DNA from: Acidobacteriota bacterium
GTDB taxonomy: Bacteria > Acidobacteriota > Thermoanaerobaculia > UBA5066
Reading direction: 5' to 3'
DNA length: 52,904 bases
Assembly: GCA_029567505.1 (NCBI GenBank)
Contig: JAKPXO010000208.1
Span: forward strand, 1 to 52,904
A model generated the notes under the pieces. That model searched no databases. It saw nothing but the letters and a program-made list of their open reading frames with translations, and was not told where the DNA came from. Below are positions 42,277 to 52,904 of the stretch, piece after piece. Numbering within the stretch: position 1 is the stretch's first letter; each line of letters starts with the position of its first letter. A program made the position numbers and the translations under genes.

Positions 42277-43167
42277 ATGGCCTTCGTCGGCCGCCGGGCT
42301 GCCCGGCCGCTCCTTCCCTGTCTCCCGGCCCTCCTCCTCGCGCCGGTCCTTTGCGCGCAGGCGCCGCTCGAGACGATTCCCGACCCGGCTCGCCTCGCGC
42401 CGGCCGAGGTCCCGTTCGTCAACCCGCTCTGGCAGGCGCTCGACGCTCCGGCGGCCCCGAAAGGGCCTCCGCCGAGGCTCCGGGACCTGGAGACGACCGG
42501 TCCCCTCATCGTCGGCGTGAAGCTGGACGCCGCGGGGGCCGTCTCGGAGACGGTCGTCCCCGAGCCCCCGCTCCGCGCGCTCGCCGCCGCCGTCCAGGCC
42601 CAGGCGCCGCGCTGGACGTTCCAGCCGGCGACGAAGGACGGAGTGGCGGTCCGCTGCTGGGGGACCTACGGTGTCGACGTCGAGGTGGAGCTCGAGGACG
42701 CGACGTGGCACGCGTTCGCGCTCGTCCCGGTCGGAAAGGAAGACCCGCTTCCCGAGCTGCCGAAGGAGATGCCGGGAGAGACGTGGATGAGCCGGTACCC
42801 GGCCGCGGTCTCCCCCGCGGAGCCGGGCGTCCTCTCGGTCGAGGAGGTCGACTTCCTGCCGATGCCGGTGAAGGTCCCGCTCAAGCTCGAGGGAACGCGC
42901 CTGAAGTCGCGTCTCCTCGCTCTCGTCGAGGTCTCGGGTCTCGGCACGGTCAAGCGCGTCGTGCCGGTCGGGACGTACGAGCCGATGATCCTCCGCTGGG
43001 TCCGGGAGAGCGCGAAGGAGTGGGCGCTCACCGCCGCGAGGACGGGAGGCTCGCCGGTCACCTCCTGGCTCGCGCTCGACACGACGATCGAGTACTCCCT
43101 CGGCTCGGTGAAGGAACGCGGGAAGCGCTCCGTCAAGAAGAACGTCCGCGGCGAGCCGGTGCCGTGA
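42277..43167 (+). CDS. secreted protein of unknown function, TonB-C-like
   Basis: A 296-residue protein. The signal peptide is RRAARPLLPCLPALLLAPVL (about 6-25), probably cleaved after LCAQA. Residues about 70-125 (GPLIVGVKLDAAGAVSETVV, RWTFQPA) have the strand-helix-strand pattern of TonB C-terminal-like domains, and a second similar part is at about 210-280 (LLALVEVSGLGTVKRVVPVG). I do not recognise a family. It ends in a basic tail. The stop overlaps the GTG of the HTH-EIIA gene, which places it at the head of the membrane-complex operon; a periplasmic partner for that complex is possible but unproven. The start is ATG at 42277, 7 nt after TACAAT. Confidence 0.7.
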   Translation: MAFVGRRAARPLLPCLPALLLAPVLCAQAPLETIPDPARLAPAEVPFVNPLWQALDAPAAPKGPPPRLRDLETTGPLIVGVKLDAAGAVSETVVPEPPLRALAAAVQAQAPRWTFQPATKDGVAVRCWGTYGVDVEVELEDATWHAFALVPVGKEDPLPELPKEMPGETWMSRYPAAVSPAEPGVLSVEEVDFLPMPVKVPLKLEGTRLKSRLLALVEVSGLGTVKRVVPVGTYEPMILRWVRESAKEWALTAARTGGSPVTSWLALDTTIEYSLGSVKERGKRSVKKNVRGEPVP

Positions 43168-43865
43168 AGCTGACGACCGCGGACGCCGCCGACCTCCTCG
43201 ACGTCGACGAGTCGACGATCTACCGCTGGATCGAGGAGCGGGACCTCCCCGCCGAGCGGATCGCCGAGCGGACGCTCCTGAACCGCGCGGCCCTCCTGGA
43301 ATGGGCGACCGAGCACCGCGTCGCCGTCTCGCCCCGGGTCTTCCTCCCCGCCGAGGCCGGCGGCGAGCGGCTCCCCTCCTTCGCCGCGGCGCTCGCGGCG
43401 GGCGGGGTCCACCACGCCCTGCCCGGCGGGACCCGGCAGGAGGTCCTCCGCGAGGCGGTCTCGCGCCTTCCGCTCCCCGAGGGGATCGAGGCCGGGGAGC
43501 TCCTCGCCTTCCTCCTCGCGCGCGAGACCGCCGGCTCCTCGGCGATCGGCGACGGGATCGCGATCCCGCACGTGCGGGCCCCGATCGTCCTCGACGTCGA
43601 CGAGGCGCTGGTCAGCCTCTCCTTCCTCGCCGCGCCGGTCGACTTCGGCGCCTCAGACGGCCGTCCGGTGACGGTCCTCGTCACGATGGTGACGCCGACC
43701 GTCCACGGTCACCTCCACCTCCTCGCTGCCCTTGCCTGCCTCCTCCGCGACGAGGCCTTCCGAGCGGCCGTGAGGGCCGCCGCGCCGGCCGACGAGCTCC
43801 TCGCGCTCGCGCGGCAGATCGAGGCGCGCGGCGGCGGACGGCGGGCGGAGGCCGGGGCGGTCTGA
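43164..43865 (+). CDS. HTH - PTS EIIA (PtsN-like) fusion protein
   Basis: A 233-residue cytoplasmic protein. Residues 1-50 are an excisionase/MerR-like helix-turn-helix: KLTTADAADLLDVDESTIYR, then WIEERDLPAERI. Residues about 75-220 are a PTS IIA domain of the fructose/nitrogen type, with the phospho-accepting His in GDGIAIPHVRAP (about 130-141) and the HLHLLAALACLL helix. No sugar-binding EIIB/EIIC is nearby, so this is likely a regulator that reads PEP-phosphotransfer state, not a transporter. The GTG overlaps the stop of the secreted protein, and the stop overlaps the ATG of the first antiporter subunit (TGATG). It is thus embedded in the Ehr-like operon and is its most likely control protein. 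Confidence 0.85.
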   Translation: MKLTTADAADLLDVDESTIYRWIEERDLPAERIAERTLLNRAALLEWATEHRVAVSPRVFLPAEAGGERLPSFAAALAAGGVHHALPGGTRQEVLREAVSRLPLPEGIEAGELLAFLLARETAGSSAIGDGIAIPHVRAPIVLDVDEALVSLSFLAAPVDFGASDGRPVTVLVTMVTPTVHGHLHLLAALACLLRDEAFRAAVRAAAPADELLALARQIEARGGGRRAEAGAV

Positions 43866-45916
43866 TGGAGGCTGCGAGTCCCGACGGCCTGCTCCTCGCC
43901 GGCGCGATTGCTCTCGTCGCGCTGAGCGGGCTCCCCGGGCTCCTCGCCCGGAAGGGAGGGTCGGGGGGAGAGCGGCTCTCCGCGCTCCTCGTCGGAGCCG
44001 GAGCGCTCCTCGGGCTCGCCGCGTCGGCGCGCGTCCTCTTCCTCGGCGGCGGCTTCCGCGTCGAGCTCCCGAGCCCGCTCCCGGGTGGCCCGCTCCTCCT
44101 CTCGGCCGACGCCCTCTCGGCCCTCTTCCTCGTCCCGGTCTTCCTCGTCCCGGCGCTCGGGGCCGTCTACGGCCTCGGCTACTGGCCCGAGGCGGAGCAC
44201 AGGCGCGACGCCCGCAAGCTCCGCTTCTTCTACGGTCTCCTCGCCGCCGCGATGGCGGTCGTCCTCCTCGCCCGGAGCGGCGTCCTCTTCCTCGTCGCCT
44301 GGGAGGTGATGGCGCTCGCCGCCTTCTTCGCCGCGACGACCGAGGACAGGCAGCCCTCGGTGCGGGAGGCGGGGTGGATCTACCTCGTCGCGACGCACGC
44401 CGGGACGCTCGGCCTCTTCGGGATGACGGCGCTCCTCGCGCGGACGACGGGCGGTTTCGCCTGGGAGGCGCCGGACGGCGGCCTCGCCGTGACGGCCTCC
44501 TCGAGCGTCGTCTTCCTCCTCGCCGTCGTCGGCTTCGGCGGGAAGGCGGGTCTCTTCCCGTTCCACTTCTGGCTCCCCGGCGCGCACGGCGGCGCGCCGA
44601 GCCACGTCTCGGCGGTGATGTCGGGCGTCATGCTGAAGGTCGGCCTCTACGGCCTCCTCCGCGTCGTCTCGCTCTACGGAGCGCCGCCCGCCTGGTGGGG
44701 CGGCCTGCTCCTCCTCCTCGGCGCCGGCTCGGCCCTCTTCGGGGCGGCGCTCGCCGCGGGGCAGGGAGACCTCAAGCGCCTCCTCGCCTACTCCTCCGTC
44801 GAGAACGTCGGCATCGTGACGACGGGGATCGGCCTCGCCCTCCTCGGGCGCTCGGAGGGCCGGCCGGAGTGGGTCGCGCTCGGCCTCGGCGGGGCGCTCC
44901 TCCACGTCCTCTACCACTCCCTCTTCAAGACGCTCCTCTTCCTCGGCGCGGGGGCGGTGATCCACGCGGCCGGGACGCGCGAGGTCGACCGGCTGGGCGG
45001 GCTCCTCCGGAAGATGCCGCGGACCGGGGCCGCGTTCGCCGCCGGCTGCGCGGCGGCGCTCGCCTTCCCGCCCCTCGCCGGGTTCTTCTCGGAGCTCGTC
45101 GTCTACGTCGGCCTCTTCCGAGCCTTCGCCGGGCCCGACTCCTCGCTCCTCGCCGCGTTTGCCGCGCCGGCGCTCGCGGTCGCGGGGGCGGTCGCGCTCG
45201 CGGCCTTCACGAAGCTCTTCGGCGTCGTCTTCCTCGGGAGCCCCCGCTCCGAAGAGGCCGCGCACGCGCACGAGCCGGGGCGGGCGATGCTCGGTCCGAT
45301 CCTCGTCCTCGGCGCGCTCGTCGCCGTCGCCGGCCTCCTCTCGCCGCTCCTGGCGCCGGGCGTCGACGCGGCGATCCGCGCGTGGGTCGCTCCGGCCGTG
45401 CCGCCCGGCTCCGTCGGGGAGCTCGCCCATCCCGTGCCGCCGCTCGCCGCGATCGTCCCACTCGGGACGATCGCGCTCCTCGGCGTCGCGTTCCTCGGCC
45501 TCCTCGCCCTCGTCGCGGGTCTCCTCGCGCTCCGCCTCCGCCGCGCCTCCTTCGATCGCGGCGCGACCTGGGACTGTGGCTACGCCCGCCCGACCGGGCG
45601 GATGCAGTACACGGGGAGCTCCTTCGGCGACTGGATCGCCGGCCGGCTGACGCCGTCCGCCGCAGCGCCGGTCCTCGAGGTCCGCCCCCCCGTCGGGAGC
45701 TTCCCGCGGGGTGCCGCCGTCTCGGCGCCGGCACCCGCGCGCGACCCGCTCCTCCTCCGGCTCCTCGAGCCGTTCGCGTCGCGCTGGGCGCGCCGTTTCC
45801 ACGACCTCCACGCCCTCCAGGAAGGGCGCCTGACGATCTACCTCGTCTACGTCCTCGGCACGCTCGTCGCGCTCCTGGCCTGGAGCGCGCTCCGCGGGTG
45901 GGTCCTGCCGAGGTGA
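43865..45916 (+). CDS. antiporter-like proton-channel subunit (HyfB/NuoL-M type), copy 1
   Basis: A 683-residue membrane protein with 14-16 helices. Signature parts are FLVAWEVMALAAFFA (conserved Glu), GFGGKAGLFPFHFWLPGAHG (conserved Lys), SHVSAVMSGVMLKVGLYG, DLKRLLAYSSVENVG and HSLFKTLLFLGAGAV. These carry the charged residues that form the ion path in Mrp/complex I subunits. A C-terminal extension has TWDCGYARPTGRMQYTGSSF (about 572-591), typical of HyfB/HycC-like subunits. The protein would move H+ or Na+ driven by the attached oxidoreductase. It begins with ATG in TGATG and overlaps copy 2 by 4 bp. Confidence 0.92.
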   Translation: MEAASPDGLLLAGAIALVALSGLPGLLARKGGSGGERLSALLVGAGALLGLAASARVLFLGGGFRVELPSPLPGGPLLLSADALSALFLVPVFLVPALGAVYGLGYWPEAEHRRDARKLRFFYGLLAAAMAVVLLARSGVLFLVAWEVMALAAFFAATTEDRQPSVREAGWIYLVATHAGTLGLFGMTALLARTTGGFAWEAPDGGLAVTASSSVVFLLAVVGFGGKAGLFPFHFWLPGAHGGAPSHVSAVMSGVMLKVGLYGLLRVVSLYGAPPAWWGGLLLLLGAGSALFGAALAAGQGDLKRLLAYSSVENVGIVTTGIGLALLGRSEGRPEWVALGLGGALLHVLYHSLFKTLLFLGAGAVIHAAGTREVDRLGGLLRKMPRTGAAFAAGCAAALAFPPLAGFFSELVVYVGLFRAFAGPDSSLLAAFAAPALAVAGAVALAAFTKLFGVVFLGSPRSEEAAHAHEPGRAMLGPILVLGALVAVAGLLSPLLAPGVDAAIRAWVAPAVPPGSVGELAHPVPPLAAIVPLGTIALLGVAFLGLLALVAGLLALRLRRASFDRGATWDCGYARPTGRMQYTGSSFGDWIAGRLTPSAAAPVLEVRPPVGSFPRGAAVSAPAPARDPLLLRLLEPFASRWARRFHDLHALQEGRLTIYLVYVLGTLVALLAWSALRGWVLPR

Positions 45917-47895
45917 GCCTCCTCCTCGTCCTCGGCGGCGCTCTCCTCTGCGCGGCCGGCGGCGTGCCGGGGCTCCTCCTGCGGCGAGCGGAGACGGGAC
46001 GCCGGCTCGCCCTCGCCGGCTCCCTCGCCGGCTCCCTCCTCGGCCTCGCGGGCGCGGCGCTCGCGGCCGTCACGGGGACGGTCGAGACGATTCAGCGCTC
46101 CTGGCCGCTCCCGGGCGCGGCCTTCCACGTCTCGCTCGACGCCCTCTCGGCCCTCTTCCTCGCTCCGCTCTTCCTCGCCTCCGCGGCCGCGGCCGTGAGC
46201 GGCGCTCGCTCCTTCGGCGACGAGGCGCACCCGGACGACGCGCCGCGGACCCGTTTCTTCTTCGGCCTGTCGACCGGGGCGATCGCGCTCGTCCTCGTGG
46301 CGCGCAACCTCCTCCTCTTCCTCGCGGCGTGGGAAGTGATGGCCCTCGCGGCCTTCTTCCTCGTCACGGCCGACCGGGAGTCGCGCGAGGCGCGCGACGC
46401 TGGGCGTCTCTACCTCTTCGCGACGCACGTCTCGACGCTCGTCCTCTTCGGTTTCTTCGCCCTCTTCCGATCCGCCTCCGGATCGACGGAGCTCGTGCCC
46501 CTCCCGGCGGGCGTCGCGGGGAGCGACGCGGGGACGGCCCTCTTCGTCCTCTGCCTCCTCGGCTTCGGCCTGAAGGCGGGCCTCCTGCCGCTCCACATCT
46601 GGCTCCCGCCGGCGCACGCGGCGGCGCCGGCGCACGTCTCGGCCCTCATGTCGGGCGTCCTGATCAAGACGGGGATCTACGGGATCGTCCGGTTCACCTC
46701 GCTCGTCCCCGACCCGCCCGCTTCCTGGGGCGACGCGCTCTTCCTCCTCGGCGCCGCCTCGGCGGTCCTGGGCGTCGCCTTCGCGCTCGGCCAGCACGAC
46801 CTGAAGCGCCTCCTCGCCTGGCACAGCGTCGAGAACATCGGGATCATCGTCCTCGGCCTCGGGGTCGGCCTCGGCGGGCGGGCGGCGGGGCGCCCCGAGT
46901 GGGCGCTCCTCGGCTTCGCGGGGGGCCTCTTCCACGTCGTGAACCACGGCCTCTTCAAGCCGCTCCTCTTCCTCGGGGCGGGGGAGGCGGCCCACGTCGC
47001 CGGGACGCGCGACATGGACCGGATGGGGGGCCTCGCGAGGGTCCTCCCGAAGACGGCGCTCCTCTTCGTCGCGGGGGCCGTCGCGATCTCCGGTCTCCCG
47101 CCGCTGAACGGCTTCGCGAGCGAGTGGCTCGTCTACCTCGGCCTCTTCGACCGGGCCCGCGCGACCGGGGCCGACGCCCTCCGCGCGGCGTTCGGGGTCC
47201 CGGCGCTCGCCCTGACCGGCGCGCTGGCGCTCGCCTGCTTCGTGAAGGCGCACGGCGCCGTCTTCCTCGGGAACGCGCGCGGCGAGGCGCCGCAGCCCCA
47301 CGGCCAGCCGGCGTCGCACGGTGAGCCGCCGGCCCACGTGGGCCCGATGGCGCTCCTCGCCGCGGCGTGCGCCCTCCTCGGCCTCCTCCCGGCGGTGGTC
47401 GCTCCCGCCCTCGCCCGCGCCGCGGCGGTCGCCGCGCCCGGCCCCGTCCCGGCGAAGCCGCTCGCCGAGCTCGCCTCGCTCGGGACGGTCGGCGTCGCGG
47501 CCCTCGCGGTCGTCCTCCTCGTCGCCGCGGTCGCGCTCCTCCTCCGCCGCCGGCTCGCGGCGGAGACGACGGCCGGCCCGACGTGGGACTGCGGCTACGC
47601 GAGCCCGACCGCGCGGATGCAGTACACGGCGTCGTCGTTCGCCCGCGGGCCGGTCGGGTGGTTCGGGTGGGCCCTTCGGCCGCGCCTGAAGGGGGCGCCC
47701 GTCGCGAAGCTCTTCCCCGCCTCCGCGCGATTCGAGAGCCACGTCCTCGACACCGTCCTCGACCGCGCCGTCGTCCCCGTCTTCCGCGCCGGAGCGTGGC
47801 TCGCCCGGCAGGGGCGCGTCCTCCAGCACGGGAAGATGCAGCTCTACCTCCTCTACGTCGTCGCGACGCTCGTCGCGCTCCTGTTCCAGGTCTGA
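45913..47895 (+). CDS. antiporter-like proton-channel subunit (HyfB/NuoL-M type), copy 2
   Basis: A 660-residue paralogue of the preceding protein, similar along its whole length: LAAWEVMALAAFFLVT, GFGLKAGLLPLHIWLPPAHA, SALMSGVLIKTGIYG, DLKRLLAWHSVENIG, HGLFKPLLFLGAGE, and again the C-terminal TWDCGYASPTARMQYTASSF. It carries the same key Glu and Lys residues. A His-rich loop (QPHGQPASHGEPPAH) lies near residue 460-475. Two such subunits in tandem, plus the HyfF-like one later, suggest more than one ion-translocating path. The start is GTG at 45913 in GTGA overlapping copy 1; the next gene follows 14 bp later. Confidence 0.92.
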   Translation: MSLLLVLGGALLCAAGGVPGLLLRRAETGRRLALAGSLAGSLLGLAGAALAAVTGTVETIQRSWPLPGAAFHVSLDALSALFLAPLFLASAAAAVSGARSFGDEAHPDDAPRTRFFFGLSTGAIALVLVARNLLLFLAAWEVMALAAFFLVTADRESREARDAGRLYLFATHVSTLVLFGFFALFRSASGSTELVPLPAGVAGSDAGTALFVLCLLGFGLKAGLLPLHIWLPPAHAAAPAHVSALMSGVLIKTGIYGIVRFTSLVPDPPASWGDALFLLGAASAVLGVAFALGQHDLKRLLAWHSVENIGIIVLGLGVGLGGRAAGRPEWALLGFAGGLFHVVNHGLFKPLLFLGAGEAAHVAGTRDMDRMGGLARVLPKTALLFVAGAVAISGLPPLNGFASEWLVYLGLFDRARATGADALRAAFGVPALALTGALALACFVKAHGAVFLGNARGEAPQPHGQPASHGEPPAHVGPMALLAAACALLGLLPAVVAPALARAAAVAAPGPVPAKPLAELASLGTVGVAALAVVLLVAAVALLLRRRLAAETTAGPTWDCGYASPTARMQYTASSFARGPVGWFGWALRPRLKGAPVAKLFPASARFESHVLDTVLDRAVVPVFRAGAWLARQGRVLQHGKMQLYLLYVVATLVALLFQV

Positions 47896-47909
47896 CCCCG
47901 GGAGATCCG

Positions 47910-48812
47910 ATGATCGACACGCTCGTCCACCTCGCCCTCGTCCTCGCGCTCCCGCCCCTCCTGACGGGCGTCATCGCGAAGACCAAGGCCGCCTTCGCCG
48001 GCCGGAACGGCCCGCCGCTCCTGCAGGGCTACTACGATCTGGCGAAGCTCCTCCGAAAGGGGAGCATCCTCCCCGCGGGGTCGACCTGGGTCTTTCTGGC
48101 CGGGCCGGTCGCGGGCGTCGCGGCGCCGCTCCTCGCCTCCCTCCTCCTGCCGTTCGGGGGGCACGAGGCGCCGCTCTCCTTCGCGGGCGACATGATCCTC
48201 TTCGCCTACCTCTTCGCCCTCGCCCGCTTCTTCACCGCCTCCGCGGCGCTCGACACCGGGTCGGCCTTCGAGGGGATGGGGGCCGCGCGAGAGGTCGCGT
48301 TCTCCGCCCTCGCCGAGCCGGCCCTCTTCTTCGGCTTCGTCGCCCTCGCGCGGATCTCCGGCTCCCTCTCCCTCTCCGGGATGCTCGGCTCGGGTCCCGG
48401 CTGGGTGACGGCCGGCGCCCCGCTCGTCCTCGTCGCGGCGAGCTGGGCCGTCGTCCTCCTCGCGGAGAACTGCCGGATCCCGTTCGACGACCCGAACACC
48501 CACCTCGCGCTGACGATGATCCACGAGGTGATGGTCCTCGACCACGGCGGGCCGGCGTTCGGCCTCGTCCTCTACGGCGCGGCGGTGAAGCTCTTCGTCC
48601 TCTCGGCGCTCTTCCTCCGCGTCGTCTTCCCCTTCAACGCGACCGACCCGAACCTCGACTGGCTCGCCTTCGTCGCCGGGGTCCTCCTCGTGGCGATCGG
48701 CATCGGCGTCGTCGAGTCGGTCATGGCGCGCCTGAAGCTCGTGAAGGTGCCGCAGCTCCTCGTCGGGGCCTGCCTCCTCTCGGCCTTCGGCATGCTGCTG
48801 CTGGCGAGGTGA
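47910..48812 (+). CDS. NuoH/HyfC-like membrane subunit
   Basis: A 300-residue membrane protein with about eight helices, the anchor that joins the soluble electron-transfer arm to the membrane arm. Conserved parts are GRNGPPLLQGYYDLAKLLRK (about 31-50), the loop FEGMGAAREVAFSALAEPAL with its Arg and Glu residues (about 120-139), and ENCRIPFDDPNTHLALTMIHE (about 188-208), which corresponds to the NuoH quinone-side loop. It is nearer to the hydrogenase-4 and formate-hydrogenlyase type than to complex I, being shorter than NuoH. The start is ATG with GGGAG upstream. The stop is 4 bp before the HyfE-like gene. Confidence 0.92.
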   Translation: MIDTLVHLALVLALPPLLTGVIAKTKAAFAGRNGPPLLQGYYDLAKLLRKGSILPAGSTWVFLAGPVAGVAAPLLASLLLPFGGHEAPLSFAGDMILFAYLFALARFFTASAALDTGSAFEGMGAAREVAFSALAEPALFFGFVALARISGSLSLSGMLGSGPGWVTAGAPLVLVAASWAVVLLAENCRIPFDDPNTHLALTMIHEVMVLDHGGPAFGLVLYGAAVKLFVLSALFLRVVFPFNATDPNLDWLAFVAGVLLVAIGIGVVESVMARLKLVKVPQLLVGACLLSAFGMLLLAR

Positions 48813-48816
48813 ACGG

Positions 48817-49458
48817 ATGACGCACCCGGTCGACATCCTCCTCGTCCTCGTCATCCTCCTGAACTTCCTCGTCCTCGGGACGCCGTCGCTCCGGATGACG
48901 ATCCGCGGCGCGGCGCTCCAGGGGGTCCTCCTCGCTCTCCTCCCGCTCCTCGTCCACCGCGGCTTCGGCTGGCGAGTCGGGGCGATCGCCGTCGCGACGA
49001 TGGCGCTGAAGGGGCTCCTCATCCCCGGCCTCCTCGAGAAGGCGATGCGCGACGTCCACATCCGCAGGGAGGTCGAGCCGTACGTCGGCTTCGTCCCGTC
49101 GCTCTTCCTCTGCGCCGTCGGGACGGCCCTCGCGATCCTCTTCTCGGGGAACCTCCCGCTCGCCCCCGAGCACGCCGGGACGCTCCTCGTCCCCGCCTCC
49201 CTCGCGACGCTCCTCTCCGGCTTCCTCGTCCTGACGACTCGGAAGAAGGCGATCTCGCAGGTCGTCGGCTACCTCATCCTCGAGAACGGCATCTTCGTCT
49301 TCGGCCAGCTCCTCATCGAGGCGATGCCGTTCCTCGTCGAGGCGGGCGTCCTCCTCGACCTCTTCGTCGGCATCTTCATCATGGGGATCGTCATCAACCA
49401 CATCCGGCAGGAGTTCTCGTCGCTCGACACCGAGCTCCTCTCGGAGCTGAAGGACTGA
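48817..49458 (+). CDS. HyfE-like membrane subunit (NuoK-related)
   Basis: A 213-residue membrane protein with six or seven helices. It is typical of hydrogenase-4 component E: LLNFLVLGTPSLRMTIRGAA near the start, then KGLLIPGLLEKAMRDVHIRR and EVEPYVGFVPSLFLCAVG. The NuoK-like part is ISQVVGYLILENGIFVFGQL (about 146-165), whose Glu is a conserved ion-path residue, followed by LLDLFVGIFIMGIVINHI. It lies between the NuoH-like and HyfF-like genes, in the same order as the hyf operon. The start is ATG at 48817 with GAGGTG upstream. Confidence 0.92.
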   Translation: MTHPVDILLVLVILLNFLVLGTPSLRMTIRGAALQGVLLALLPLLVHRGFGWRVGAIAVATMALKGLLIPGLLEKAMRDVHIRREVEPYVGFVPSLFLCAVGTALAILFSGNLPLAPEHAGTLLVPASLATLLSGFLVLTTRKKAISQVVGYLILENGIFVFGQLLIEAMPFLVEAGVLLDLFVGIFIMGIVINHIRQEFSSLDTELLSELKD

Positions 49459-49471
49459 GGCGGAGGCGCGC

Positions 49472-50905
49472 ATGGAAGTCGGCCTCGTCCTCCTCCCGCT
49501 CCTCGGCGCCGTCGTCGCGGCGCTTGTCCGCTCGCCCGAGCGGCGGGCCTGGGTCGTCCCGGCCGCCGGAGTCCTCCACCTCCTGCTCCTGATCGGTCTC
49601 GTCCTCGGGAACGTCCGCGCCGGGCGCGGCTTCTGGCTCCGCCTCGACCCGCTCGCGACGGTCATCCTCGGAACGATCTCGGTCCTCTTCGTCGTCGCGG
49701 CCTTCTATGCGCCGGGCTACCTCGCCCTCCGGCGCGACCGCGACAACCGGGTCTTCTGCTCGGGCCTCCTCGTCTTTCTCGCGATGACCTCGCTCCTCGC
49801 CCTCGCGCAGCACCTCGGCCTCCTCTGGGTCGCGATGGAGGCGACGACGCTCGCGACGGCGCCGCTCCTCTACTTCAACCGAACGGCCCGCTCGCTCGAG
49901 GCGACCTGGAAGTACCTGATGATCGGGTCGGTCGGCATCGCGATCGCGCTCCTCGGCTCGCTCTTTCTCGCCTACTCGGCCCACGTCGGCGGCGCCGAGC
50001 CGTCGCTCCTCTTCGACGACCTCCTCGCGGGCGCGGGCTCCTTCTCGCGCCCGTGGCTCCGGGCCGCGTTCGTCCTCCTCCTCGTCGGCTACGGGACGAA
50101 GATGGGCCTCGCGCCGCTCCACACCTGGAAGCCCGACGCCTACGGCGAGGCCTCCGGCATCGTCGGGGCGCTGCTCGCGGGCGGAATGACGAACGCCGCT
50201 TTCCTCGCCCTCCTCCGCGTCTACCGCGTCGTGAACGCGGCGGGGGAGGGGGCCTTCGCCCGGGAGCTCCTCGTCTTCATGGGGCTCGTCTCGATCGCGC
50301 TCGCCGCCGTCTTCGTCGTGAGGCAGCGCGACCTGAAGCGGATGCTCGCCTACTCGAGCGTCGAGCACGTCGGCATCCTCGTCCTCGGCATCGGCCTCGG
50401 CGGGATCGGCGTCTTCGGGTCGCTGCTGCACGCGATCAACAACGGCCTGACGAAGGGGGTCCTCTTCCTCTCCGTCGGGAACATCCACCGCGCCTTCGGG
50501 AGCAAGCACCTCGACGAGGTCTCGGGCGCCATCTCCCGCCTCCCGGTCTCGGGAAGCCTCTTCCTCGTCGGCTTCTTTGCGATCACCGGCTCCCCGCCCT
50601 TCGGGCCGTTCGTCTCGGAGTTCACGATCGTCAACGCCGCGATCGGCGGAGGGCACGCGGTCGCCGGGACGCTCCTCCTCGTCCTCCTCGGCATCGTCTT
50701 CATCGGCATGGGCTCGACGGTCCTCTCGGCCGTTCAGGGGCGGCCCGGCACCGCCTCGGCCGGGACGCCCTACAAGGACGACCTCGCGCGGACGGCCCCG
50801 ATCCTCGTCGCCGCCGCGCTCGTCCTCCTCCTCGGGCTCTGGCTCCCCGAGCCGCTCGTCTCCCTCCTCGAAAGGGCCGCCGAGGGGCTGGAGGCGCGGC
50901 CGTGA
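49472..50905 (+). CDS. HyfF-like antiporter subunit (NuoN-related)
   Basis: A 477-residue membrane protein with about 13-14 helices. It has LLWVAMEATTLATAPLLYFN (conserved Glu), GYGTKMGLAPLHTWKPDAYG (conserved Lys and KPDA motif of HyfF), VVRQRDLKRMLAYSSVEHVG, and INNGLTKGVLFLSVGN. The KPDAYGEA sequence separates HyfF/NuoN-like proteins from HyfB. It is the third antiporter-type subunit of the complex. The start is ATG at 49472, with GGCGGAGG upstream. The stop overlaps the GTG of the NuoCD-like gene (GTGA). Confidence 0.92.
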   Translation: MEVGLVLLPLLGAVVAALVRSPERRAWVVPAAGVLHLLLLIGLVLGNVRAGRGFWLRLDPLATVILGTISVLFVVAAFYAPGYLALRRDRDNRVFCSGLLVFLAMTSLLALAQHLGLLWVAMEATTLATAPLLYFNRTARSLEATWKYLMIGSVGIAIALLGSLFLAYSAHVGGAEPSLLFDDLLAGAGSFSRPWLRAAFVLLLVGYGTKMGLAPLHTWKPDAYGEASGIVGALLAGGMTNAAFLALLRVYRVVNAAGEGAFARELLVFMGLVSIALAAVFVVRQRDLKRMLAYSSVEHVGILVLGIGLGGIGVFGSLLHAINNGLTKGVLFLSVGNIHRAFGSKHLDEVSGAISRLPVSGSLFLVGFFAITGSPPFGPFVSEFTIVNAAIGGGHAVAGTLLLVLLGIVFIGMGSTVLSAVQGRPGTASAGTPYKDDLARTAPILVAAALVLLLGLWLPEPLVSLLERAAEGLEARP

Positions 50906-52425
50906 GCGGCGCCTTCGTCCGCATTCGCAACGGGGGCGCTCTCCCGCTCGCGAAGCTCCCCGAGGCCGGCTTCGACGCCTTTCGCGGCGAGCTCCTCGGC
51001 GAGCTGGCGGCGGGCAGGCGCCTCGTCGCGTTCTTCGCCGCTCCCGTCGACGGCGCGGCCGCCGAGCTCTGGGCCGTCGTCGCCGCCGACGGCCCCGGGA
51101 CGCTCTCGATCGCGCGAACGCGTCTTCCGGACGACCGCTTCCCCTCGCTCACCCCGGCGGCGCCGCAGGCGCACCTCTTCGAGCGGGAGATGGCCGAGCA
51201 GCTCGGCCTGAAGCCGCAGGGGCACCCGTGGCTGAAGCCGGTGAGATACCGCACCTCGTGGCGGCCGGGGCACGACGCCTGGGGGCGGACGGAGGGCGAC
51301 CCGATCCTCCCCGCGGTCGGCGACTTCTTCCGCGTCGAGGGGACCGAGGTCCACGAGGTCGCCGTCGGCCCGGTCCACGCCGGCGTCATCGAGCCGGGGC
51401 ACTTCCGCTTCCAGTGCCACGGCGAAAAGGTGTTTCACCTCGAGATCGCCCTCGGATTCCAGCACCGAGGAGTCGAGGAGTCGCTCCTCGGCGGGCCCCA
51501 CCGGACGACTGCCGCCCGGATGGAGACGCTCGCGGGCGACACGACCGTCGGGCATTCGACCGCCTTCGCCCAGGCGCTCGAAGCGCTCTCGGGGACCGCC
51601 GTCCCGCCGCGCGCGCAGGCGCTGCGCGGCATCGCCCTCGAGCTCGAGCGGCTCGCGAACCACACGGGCGACCTCGGCGCCCTCGCGGGAGACGTCGGCT
51701 TCCTCCCGACGGCCTCGTTCTGCGGCCGCCTCCGCGGCGACTTCCTGAACATGACGGCCGTCCTCTGCGGCAACCGGTTCGGCCGCGGCCTCGTCCGCTC
51801 CGGCGGGACGCTCGTCGACGCCGACGAGGCGCTCGTCGCGGACCTCTCGCGCCGGCTCGAGGAGACGGTGAAGGACCTGCGCGGTGCCGCGGAGCTTCTC
51901 TTCGCGACGGCCACGGTGACGGCCCGGTTCGAGGGGACGGGGCGCGTCGACCCGGCGACGGCCGAGGCGCTCGGCCTCGTCGGGCCGGCCGCGCGCGCCT
52001 GCGGCGTCGACCAGGACGTGCGGCGCGATCACCCCTCCGGCGTCTTCCGCTTCGTCCACGTCCCCGTCATGACCGCGCACGACGGCGACGTGAACGCGCG
52101 CGCCTACGTTCGCTGGCTCGAGGCGCAGCGCTCGTACGACTTCGTCCGGGCGCAGCTCGCCGCGCTCCCCGAAGGGAGCGTGCGGAACGCACCGAAGCCG
52201 CTTCGGCCCGAGCACGTCGCCGTCTCCCTCGTCGAAGGGTGGCGCGGCGAGGTCGCCCACGTCGCCGTGACGGACGCCGGCGGCCGCTTCTCGCGCTACA
52301 AGGTCGTCGACCCCTCGTTCCACAACTGGACGGGCCTCGCGATGGCCCTCCGGAACGAGGAGATCTCCGACTTCCCGCTCTGCAACAAGAGCTTCAACCT
52401 CTCCTACTGCGGGCACGACCTGTGA
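50902..52425 (+). CDS. fused NuoC-NuoD / hydrogenase-large-subunit-like protein without [NiFe] ligands
   Basis: A 507-residue soluble subunit. Residues 1-150 are NuoC-like (LFEREMAEQLGLKPQGHPWL). Residues about 155-507 have the NuoD/[NiFe] large-subunit fold: VGPVHAGVIEPGHFRFQCHG, GFQHRGVEE, METLAGDTTVGHS (207-219), ERLANHTGDLG and DFLNMTA. In [NiFe] hydrogenases two CxxC pairs hold the metals. The first place here reads LAGDTTVGHS with no cysteine. The C-terminal DPCxxC is DPSFHNW. The protein ends CNKSFNLSYCGHDL with two non-canonical cysteines. It cannot bind a NiFe centre, so the complex is not a hydrogenase. This is the feature of Ehr complexes. The start is GTG overlapping the HyfF-like stop. 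Confidence 0.9.
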   Translation: MSGAFVRIRNGGALPLAKLPEAGFDAFRGELLGELAAGRRLVAFFAAPVDGAAAELWAVVAADGPGTLSIARTRLPDDRFPSLTPAAPQAHLFEREMAEQLGLKPQGHPWLKPVRYRTSWRPGHDAWGRTEGDPILPAVGDFFRVEGTEVHEVAVGPVHAGVIEPGHFRFQCHGEKVFHLEIALGFQHRGVEESLLGGPHRTTAARMETLAGDTTVGHSTAFAQALEALSGTAVPPRAQALRGIALELERLANHTGDLGALAGDVGFLPTASFCGRLRGDFLNMTAVLCGNRFGRGLVRSGGTLVDADEALVADLSRRLEETVKDLRGAAELLFATATVTARFEGTGRVDPATAEALGLVGPAARACGVDQDVRRDHPSGVFRFVHVPVMTAHDGDVNARAYVRWLEAQRSYDFVRAQLAALPEGSVRNAPKPLRPEHVAVSLVEGWRGEVAHVAVTDAGGRFSRYKVVDPSFHNWTGLAMALRNEEISDFPLCNKSFNLSYCGHDL

Positions 52426-52435
52426 GGAGGCGGAG

Positions 52436-52904
52436 ATGATCAGGGCCCTCCTCGAGCGGATCTCCCAGAAGCACCGGACGATGGCCTGGCCCGACGGCCC
52501 GCCGCCGGCGCTCCCGTCCCGCTACCGCGGCCTCCCCGCGATCGACGCGTCCCGCTGCCCCGAAGGCTGCCGCGCCTGCGCCGACGTCTGCCCCACGGAG
52601 GCGATCGCGATCGCCGGCGGGAAGCCGTCGCTCGACCTCGGCCGCTGCCTCTTCTGCCCCGAGTGCGAGGCCGCCTGCCCCGAGAAGGCGATCTCCTTCA
52701 CCTCCGACTACCGCCTCGCCGTCCGCACCCGCGAGGACCTCACGCTCGACGGCGCGGCGCTCCCGCTCGCGCGGGCGCTCGAGGGGAGACTCCTCTCGCT
52801 CTTCGGACGGTCGCTGAAGCTCCGGGTCGTGAGCGCTGGCGGCTGCAACGCCTGCGAGGCCGACGTGAACGTCCTCGGGACGATCACGTCGGCCTCGCAG
52901 GCGT
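52436..52904 (+). CDS. ferredoxin - NuoB/hydrogenase-small-subunit fusion (partial, right edge)
   Basis: The first 156 residues are visible. Two [4Fe-4S] sites are present: Cys41, 45, 48, 52 (CPEGCRACADVCP, with an unusual three-residue first gap) and Cys71, 74, 77, 81 (CLFCPECEAACP). After a linker of about 45 residues, a NuoB/HyfI-like domain begins at about 128 (LRVVSAGGCNACEADVNVLG) with Cys137 and Cys140, the first ligands of the proximal cluster N2. It therefore joins the HyfH and HyfI functions in one chain and would pass electrons from a soluble donor to the NuoD-like subunit. The ATG at 52436 follows TGAGGAGGCGGAG, a strong ribosome binding site, 10 bp after the previous stop. The rest lies outside the window. 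Confidence 0.9.
   Translation, partial: MIRALLERISQKHRTMAWPDGPPPALPSRYRGLPAIDASRCPEGCRACADVCPTEAIAIAGGKPSLDLGRCLFCPECEAACPEKAISFTSDYRLAVRTREDLTLDGAALPLARALEGRLLSLFGRSLKLRVVSAGGCNACEADVNVLGTITSASQA

Follow-up and report, generated by a model that had tools for sequence, protein, structure and literature searches.

The window, which is the entire contig C142 (52,904 nucleotides), comes from a 5.14 Mb assembly of 532 contigs whose genome is 96% complete. From position 42,277 to the contig end, nine plus strand genes follow one another with overlaps of 1-4 bp or gaps of 4-14 bp, the run opening 20 bp downstream of polA. The sequence-only reading, made before any database search, had recognised this tight packing but counted ten genes. 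The nine comprise seven subunits of an energy-converting hydrogenase-related (Ehr) complex, with EhrL and EhrS as its large and small subunits, a TonB_C-domain protein and a protein that combines a helix-turn-helix with a PTS EIIA domain (HTH-EIIA); the earlier reader had left the last two unnamed. The features are as follows:

42277..43167, plus strand: TonB_C-domain protein whose start resembles a signal peptide; opens the run in the genus and family
43164..43865, plus strand: predicted regulator, HTH_17 (2.7e-12) plus PTS EIIA of PtsN/EIIA-Ntr-like type (PTS_EIIA_2, 1.2e-20)
43865..45916, plus strand: HyfB-like antiporter-type subunit 1 (Proton_antipo_M, 6.5e-48; hydrogenase 4 subunit B, 2e-154, under that model's cut-off)
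45913..47895, plus strand: HyfB-like antiporter-type subunit 2, a second copy (profile matches and alignment)
47910..48812, plus strand: NuoH/HyfC-like membrane subunit (NADHdh, 1e-33)
48817..49458, plus strand: HyfE-like membrane subunit (hydrogenase 4 membrane subunit, 1.1e-21, under that model's cut-off)
49472..50905, plus strand: HyfF-like antiporter-type subunit 3 (Proton_antipo_M, 3.6e-45; hydrogenase 4 subunit F, 1e-91, under the model cut-off)
50902..52425, plus strand: EhrL, fused NuoCD-type large subunit without [NiFe] cysteines (Complex1_49kDa, 1.3e-34; Complex1_30kDa, 8.8e-7)
52436..52883, plus strand: 5' part of EhrS, fused 2x[4Fe-4S] ferredoxin and NuoB-like small subunit, the gene being cut at the edge
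52884..52904, no strand: contig-end artefact, reverse complement of 52848-52868

Family profiles agree with the subunit types proposed from the letters: three Proton_antipo_M proteins, an NADHdh protein, a HyfE-like protein, a Complex1_30kDa plus 49kDa fusion, and Fer4 followed by the start of NuoB. The TonB_C-domain protein is probably not an Ehr subunit; its gene, which overlaps the HTH-EIIA gene, adjoins Ehr only in the close relatives G001, G004 and G007.

At the contig terminus lies a 21-base inverted copy of 52848-52868, a pattern typical of assembly-end artefacts, and the terminal EhrS residues read as TSASQA are therefore not real. A NuoB fragment without a start sits at the end of contig C379 (G000:C379 9468-9139, minus strand). 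Over the corresponding region, this fragment shares 87% identity with the G007 EhrS and 77-87% with its other best EhrS matches, against 53% with the protein of a relative with four metal-site cysteines (described below) and 42% with one NuoB protein of the same genome. Since its identity to EhrS is the higher, the fragment most likely completes EhrS, apart from a few bases lost where the contigs meet. Past the EhrS stop, C379 carries a PIN/antitoxin-like pair and a SelB-like gene on the opposite strand (L008 6429-9101; names from reading the translations). On this most likely continuation the operon ends after EhrS, and a catalytic partner beyond the right edge, for which sequence past 52904 was to be checked, is rejected: C379 shows no hydrogenase catalytic subunit.

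Judged by its sequence, the window complex is an ordinary, genuine member of the already described Ehr group, as had been proposed; the tree, the motifs, the gene layout and the absence of hydrogenase and maturation genes all agree. It has a group 4-type large subunit without either CxxC motif, together with antiporter-type, NuoH-like, HyfE-like and NuoB-like partners, the NuoB half being on C379. In a tree of 41 rows, from which MbxL was left out, the EhrL proteins, including that of G. argillaceus, form a single branch (100/100) and complex I another (100/100). The EhrL branch sits inside the FHL/Hyf-type radiation of group 4, so that the phylogeny called for by the earlier reader places EhrL in a clade of its own, within the wider group but outside the cysteine-bearing hydrogenase subgroups and complex I.

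Ehr complexes are widespread. EhrL proteins are about 60% identical over more than a dozen phyla, and a scan of species genomes found at least 544 related loci, of which the best 80 are 56-96% identical to the window EhrL. The labels of these 80 include Planctomycetota, Verrucomicrobiota, Kiritimatiellota, Lentisphaerota, Myxococcota, Spirochaetota, Fibrobacterota and Thermodesulfobacteriota (Geobacter among them), as well as others. With so many loci, and with whole motifs more than 90% invariant across phyla, the pattern is not due to chance. Within the class, EhrL was found in 30 of 149 genomes. Ehr has been reported in Geobacter, where its role was never investigated (PMC7894505), and in Nitrospira (PMC10284858), Margulisbacteria and Saganbacteria (PMC6349859), Sulfobacillus (PMC4378227), CPR (PMC7304191) and ammonia-oxidising archaea (PMC10432482); all six papers term its function unknown or speculative. 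Ehr is widespread, yet the literature that we found names neither an electron acceptor nor an ion and assigns it no physiological role. Our analysis adds the HTH-EIIA neighbour, a set of invariant residues, the four-cysteine relative and the corrected right edge.

The loss of the [NiFe] site can be followed in an alignment of EhrL with HycE, HyfG, MBH and four other [NiFe] group 4 proteins. The amino-terminal RxCGxCxxxH of HycE and HyfG corresponds to METLAGDTTVGH (residues 207-218) in the window EhrL, where the cysteines are replaced by Ala211 and Thr214 while His218 is kept; residues 211-218 were thus rightly read as lacking cysteine. The CGxC positions read AGDT in the window protein and (A/S/C)GD(T/S/A) in 25 EhrL sequences. 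The other proposed metal-binding position, DPSFHNW (470-476), aligns with AATYANW of HycE rather than with DPCxxC and is therefore not a ligand position; the true carboxy-terminal site is SFNLSYCG (497-504). There the DPCxSC motif has become NLSYCG (499-504; NLSYCG or NLSYAG among the 25 aligned EhrL), with Ser501 and Gly504 at the cysteine positions, Cys503 shifted by one residue and Cys494 a little ahead of the motif. All four cysteine ligands are therefore replaced in the alignment. Across 100 EhrL sequences, His108, His151, His159, His167, Cys172, His218 and His254 are invariant, Cys494 is conserved in 99% and Cys503 in 97%; in a few members Cys503 is replaced by Ala, and Cys274 and Cys289 vary. 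The positions of His38 and Tyr87 of Nqo4 (numbered from the Nqo4 alignment), which we take to be the quinone-binding residues of complex I, are occupied by Ile163 and Gly212. The EhrL model has a pLDDT of 89.7, falling below 50 in the pocket loops 158-163 and 503-507. Its best structural match is HycE (Z 42.7, 490 residues, 25% identity), followed by complex I 49 kDa subunits (Z 37-39); among the matches listed by sequence and fold searches of the PDB, none was labelled an Ehr complex.

Almost all of 91 full-length EhrS sequences conserve the eight ferredoxin and four NuoB cysteines, which correspond to three [4Fe-4S] clusters, and there is no flavin module; this makes ferredoxin the likeliest donor. 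NuoEFG is absent from the window cluster and from its continuation on C379. The fused subunits, which had been taken to make the complex compact, are nothing special: the ferredoxin-NuoB fusion is normal for Ehr (91 of 91 full-length small subunits, and the four-cysteine relative), and the NuoCD-type fusion is common to HycE and HyfG. In the membrane part, alignment shows the TM5 Glu and TM7 Lys kept in all three antiporter-type subunits, and the NuoH-like subunit lacks the TM1-TM2 loop insertion of NuoH, as do HyfC and HycD.

The HTH-EIIA gene adjoins Ehr in 64 of 69 distinct loci, counting as testable those that contain the gene or have 9 kb or more of sequence upstream of EhrL. Of the 64 genes, 60 share the strand of Ehr and four are on the opposite one. 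The linkage spans records of at least 12 named phyla. Two HyfB-type copies occur at 31 of the 64 loci and one copy at another 31. Within the class, EhrL and the regulator occur together in 27 genomes, EhrL alone in three, the regulator alone in three and neither in 116 (matches at E < 1e-27; Fisher p = 4e-23, a statistic that ignores genome relatedness). The 43164-43865 protein has the EIIA fold, its modelled EIIA part matching PtsN best (3urr), and the phospho-acceptor histidine; it falls short of the curated PtsN model TIGR01419 (55 bits against 138.7) and has HTH_17 at its amino terminus. The phospho-acceptor His136, in the motif GDGIAIPH, is invariant in 44 aligned sequences and present in 67 of 68 in a wider set, and a second histidine, His183, is likewise present in 67 of 68. 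HPr-family domains are encoded in the same genome. Most likely, the HTH-EIIA protein switches the Ehr operon by PTS phosphorylation. We found no paper in the open-access literature that ties an EIIA/excisionase-type regulator to hydrogenase-like operons, and this near-constant neighbour offers a way to test under which conditions cells use Ehr. At five loci (L048, L049, L052, L073, L086) a tandem pair of HTH-EIIA genes lies upstream of Ehr, the second copy often diverged.

From the observed gene content, motif loss, clade and regulator linkage we infer donor, acceptor, direction, ion and regulation as follows. A low-potential donor, most likely ferredoxin reduced by the genome's 2-oxoacid:ferredoxin oxidoreductases, would feed EhrS. 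Electrons would enter through the pair of [4Fe-4S] clusters in the ferredoxin domain, pass to the proximal [4Fe-4S] cluster of the NuoB domain and from there reach an acceptor within EhrL, in the pocket that houses [NiFe] in hydrogenases and the quinone head in complex I. Reduction of the acceptor would be coupled through the NuoH-like subunit to the three antiporter-type subunits, which would move H+ or Na+, and the HTH-EIIA protein most likely sets the operon on or off according to PTS phosphorylation. The complex can reasonably be read as a ferredoxin-linked ion pump, and we consider it probable that it is a membrane-bound, Hyf/Hyc-like pump of this kind that has lost H2 chemistry, uses a non-classical acceptor and is under HTH-EIIA control. 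Three matches to POR were found in the genome; it is present in 144 of the 149 class members and is thus uninformative as an Ehr marker. Clustering of the ORFs flanking about 95 Ehr loci gave no conserved oxidoreductase neighbour; what recurred were proteins of response-regulator type, shadow ORFs that overlap EhrS and, at some Geobacteraceae-like loci, a small gene.

On the side of the acceptor, the invariant Cys172, His218 and Cys494, the near-invariant Cys503 and the missing Tyr/His pair lead us to favour a thiol/sulfur-type or other small molecule over a classical quinone. MenG/UbiE over the cut-off is absent in 11 of 24 Ehr genomes, including G153, which misses it narrowly (156.4 against 158.35 bits), although metagenome-assembled genomes may miss genes through incompleteness. 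Together with the missing Tyr/His pair this disfavours an obligate classical quinone, an argument that incomplete assemblies weaken. UbiA has matches in every genome and is uninformative as a quinone marker. The more specific proposal that Ehr complexes are PTS-controlled, ferredoxin-driven pumps in which a new conserved Cys/His site (Cys172, His218, Cys494 and usually Cys503) has replaced [NiFe] and reduces an acceptor that is neither quinone nor proton, with HTH-EIIA as a dedicated regulator throughout the family, is tentative, and we think it unlikely. The invariant set provides named residues to mutate.

Several other readings were weighed. Ehr might act as a ferredoxin:menaquinone oxidoreductase resembling a headless complex I, with menaquinone reduced in a modified tunnel. 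The genome encodes one MenG/UbiE family member over the cut-off as well as UbiA family members, a NuoH-like subunit and antiporter modules are present, and EhrL shares its fold with the complex I 49 kDa subunits. Yet the counterparts of Nqo4 His38 and Tyr87 are absent, the NuoH-like subunit resembles HycD and HyfC in lacking the NuoH loop, and Ehr occurs both in genomes without MenG over the cut-off and in Riflemargulisbacteria whose quinone synthesis pathways are incomplete (PMC6349859); we regard this reading as unlikely. Very improbable is a cryptic [NiFe] hydrogenase with substituted ligands: the hydrogenase fold, the retained His218 and two cysteines near the carboxy-terminal site would suit it, but all four ligands are replaced, and searches of the 96% complete genome recovered no PF00374 protein and no HypD, while being positive in control genomes (four in the case of HypD). 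These two absences make H2 chemistry by the window complex very unlikely.

The two remaining readings concern direction and partners. Complex I-type machines are reversible, and Ehr could work as an ion-gradient-driven ferredoxin reductase; POR/KOR-type ferredoxin enzymes are encoded in Ehr genomes. No donor is identified for this, gene content sets no direction, and we hold it rather unlikely. A little more doubtful is a formate-linked module, in which the partner of Ehr would be a formate dehydrogenase from another part of the genome, an arrangement already suggested for Geobacter and Riflemargulisbacteria. In G. sulfurreducens every Ehr subunit reached a higher abundance with formate than under conditions that included hydrogen (PMC7894505), and the link between formate dehydrogenase and Ehr was hypothesised in PMC6349859, but no formate dehydrogenase adjoins Ehr in the window or on C379, and none is a conserved neighbour across the roughly 95 loci.

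Among known systems, the Geobacter Ehr (GSU0739-0745; EhrA, EhrC, EhrL, EhrS) shares the subunit types, the cysteine loss and a nearby HTH-EIIA gene. The G. argillaceus large subunit is 59% identical to the window EhrL over its full length; at that locus, unlike in the window, the HTH-EIIA gene and one HyfB copy lie upstream in the opposite orientation, and L and S are separated by an insertion. The layout B-C-E-F-G-H-I is common to the window and to hydrogenase 4/formate hydrogenlyase of Escherichia coli (HyfBCDEFGHI, HycBCDEFG), and EhrL aligns end to end with HycE, whereas the window complex has lost all four [NiFe] cysteines in a genome without HypD, has a second HyfB, lacks HyfD and HyfA, and has HyfH and HyfI fused. 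Complex I (NuoCD/Nqo4) shares the fold and the NuoCD domain pair, but the window complex lacks the NADH module NuoEFG and the quinone Tyr/His pair and falls in a separate clade. Mbx of Pyrococcus (6u8y), absent from the tree as noted, is likewise a group 4 relative without hydrogenase activity; it matches the EhrL profile at 5.6e-41, with a score below those of HycE and MBH.

Two further clusters bear on how the metal site was lost. The four-cysteine relative, L190 (8016-15001, G011:C166), is a Hyf-like cluster with the gene order of the window and a fused ferredoxin-NuoB subunit. Its large subunit is 41% identical to EhrL over residues 72-504 and shares GPIHAGIIEPGHFRF and NKSF, but, unlike EhrL, it keeps CGAC and CYAC, that is, all four [NiFe] cysteines, and could therefore bind [NiFe]. 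In the tree it may be the sister of Ehr (support 84/36, which is weak), and it may help to show how the site was lost. A second, distinct cysteine-less Hyf-like complex (L193 746-8498, and L194; G021 and G027) has TGTSAVAH and FGLSTAEGDR and a NuoB-like protein of its own; its tree position is unsure because of a long branch, and its motifs may reflect a separate loss of the metal site.
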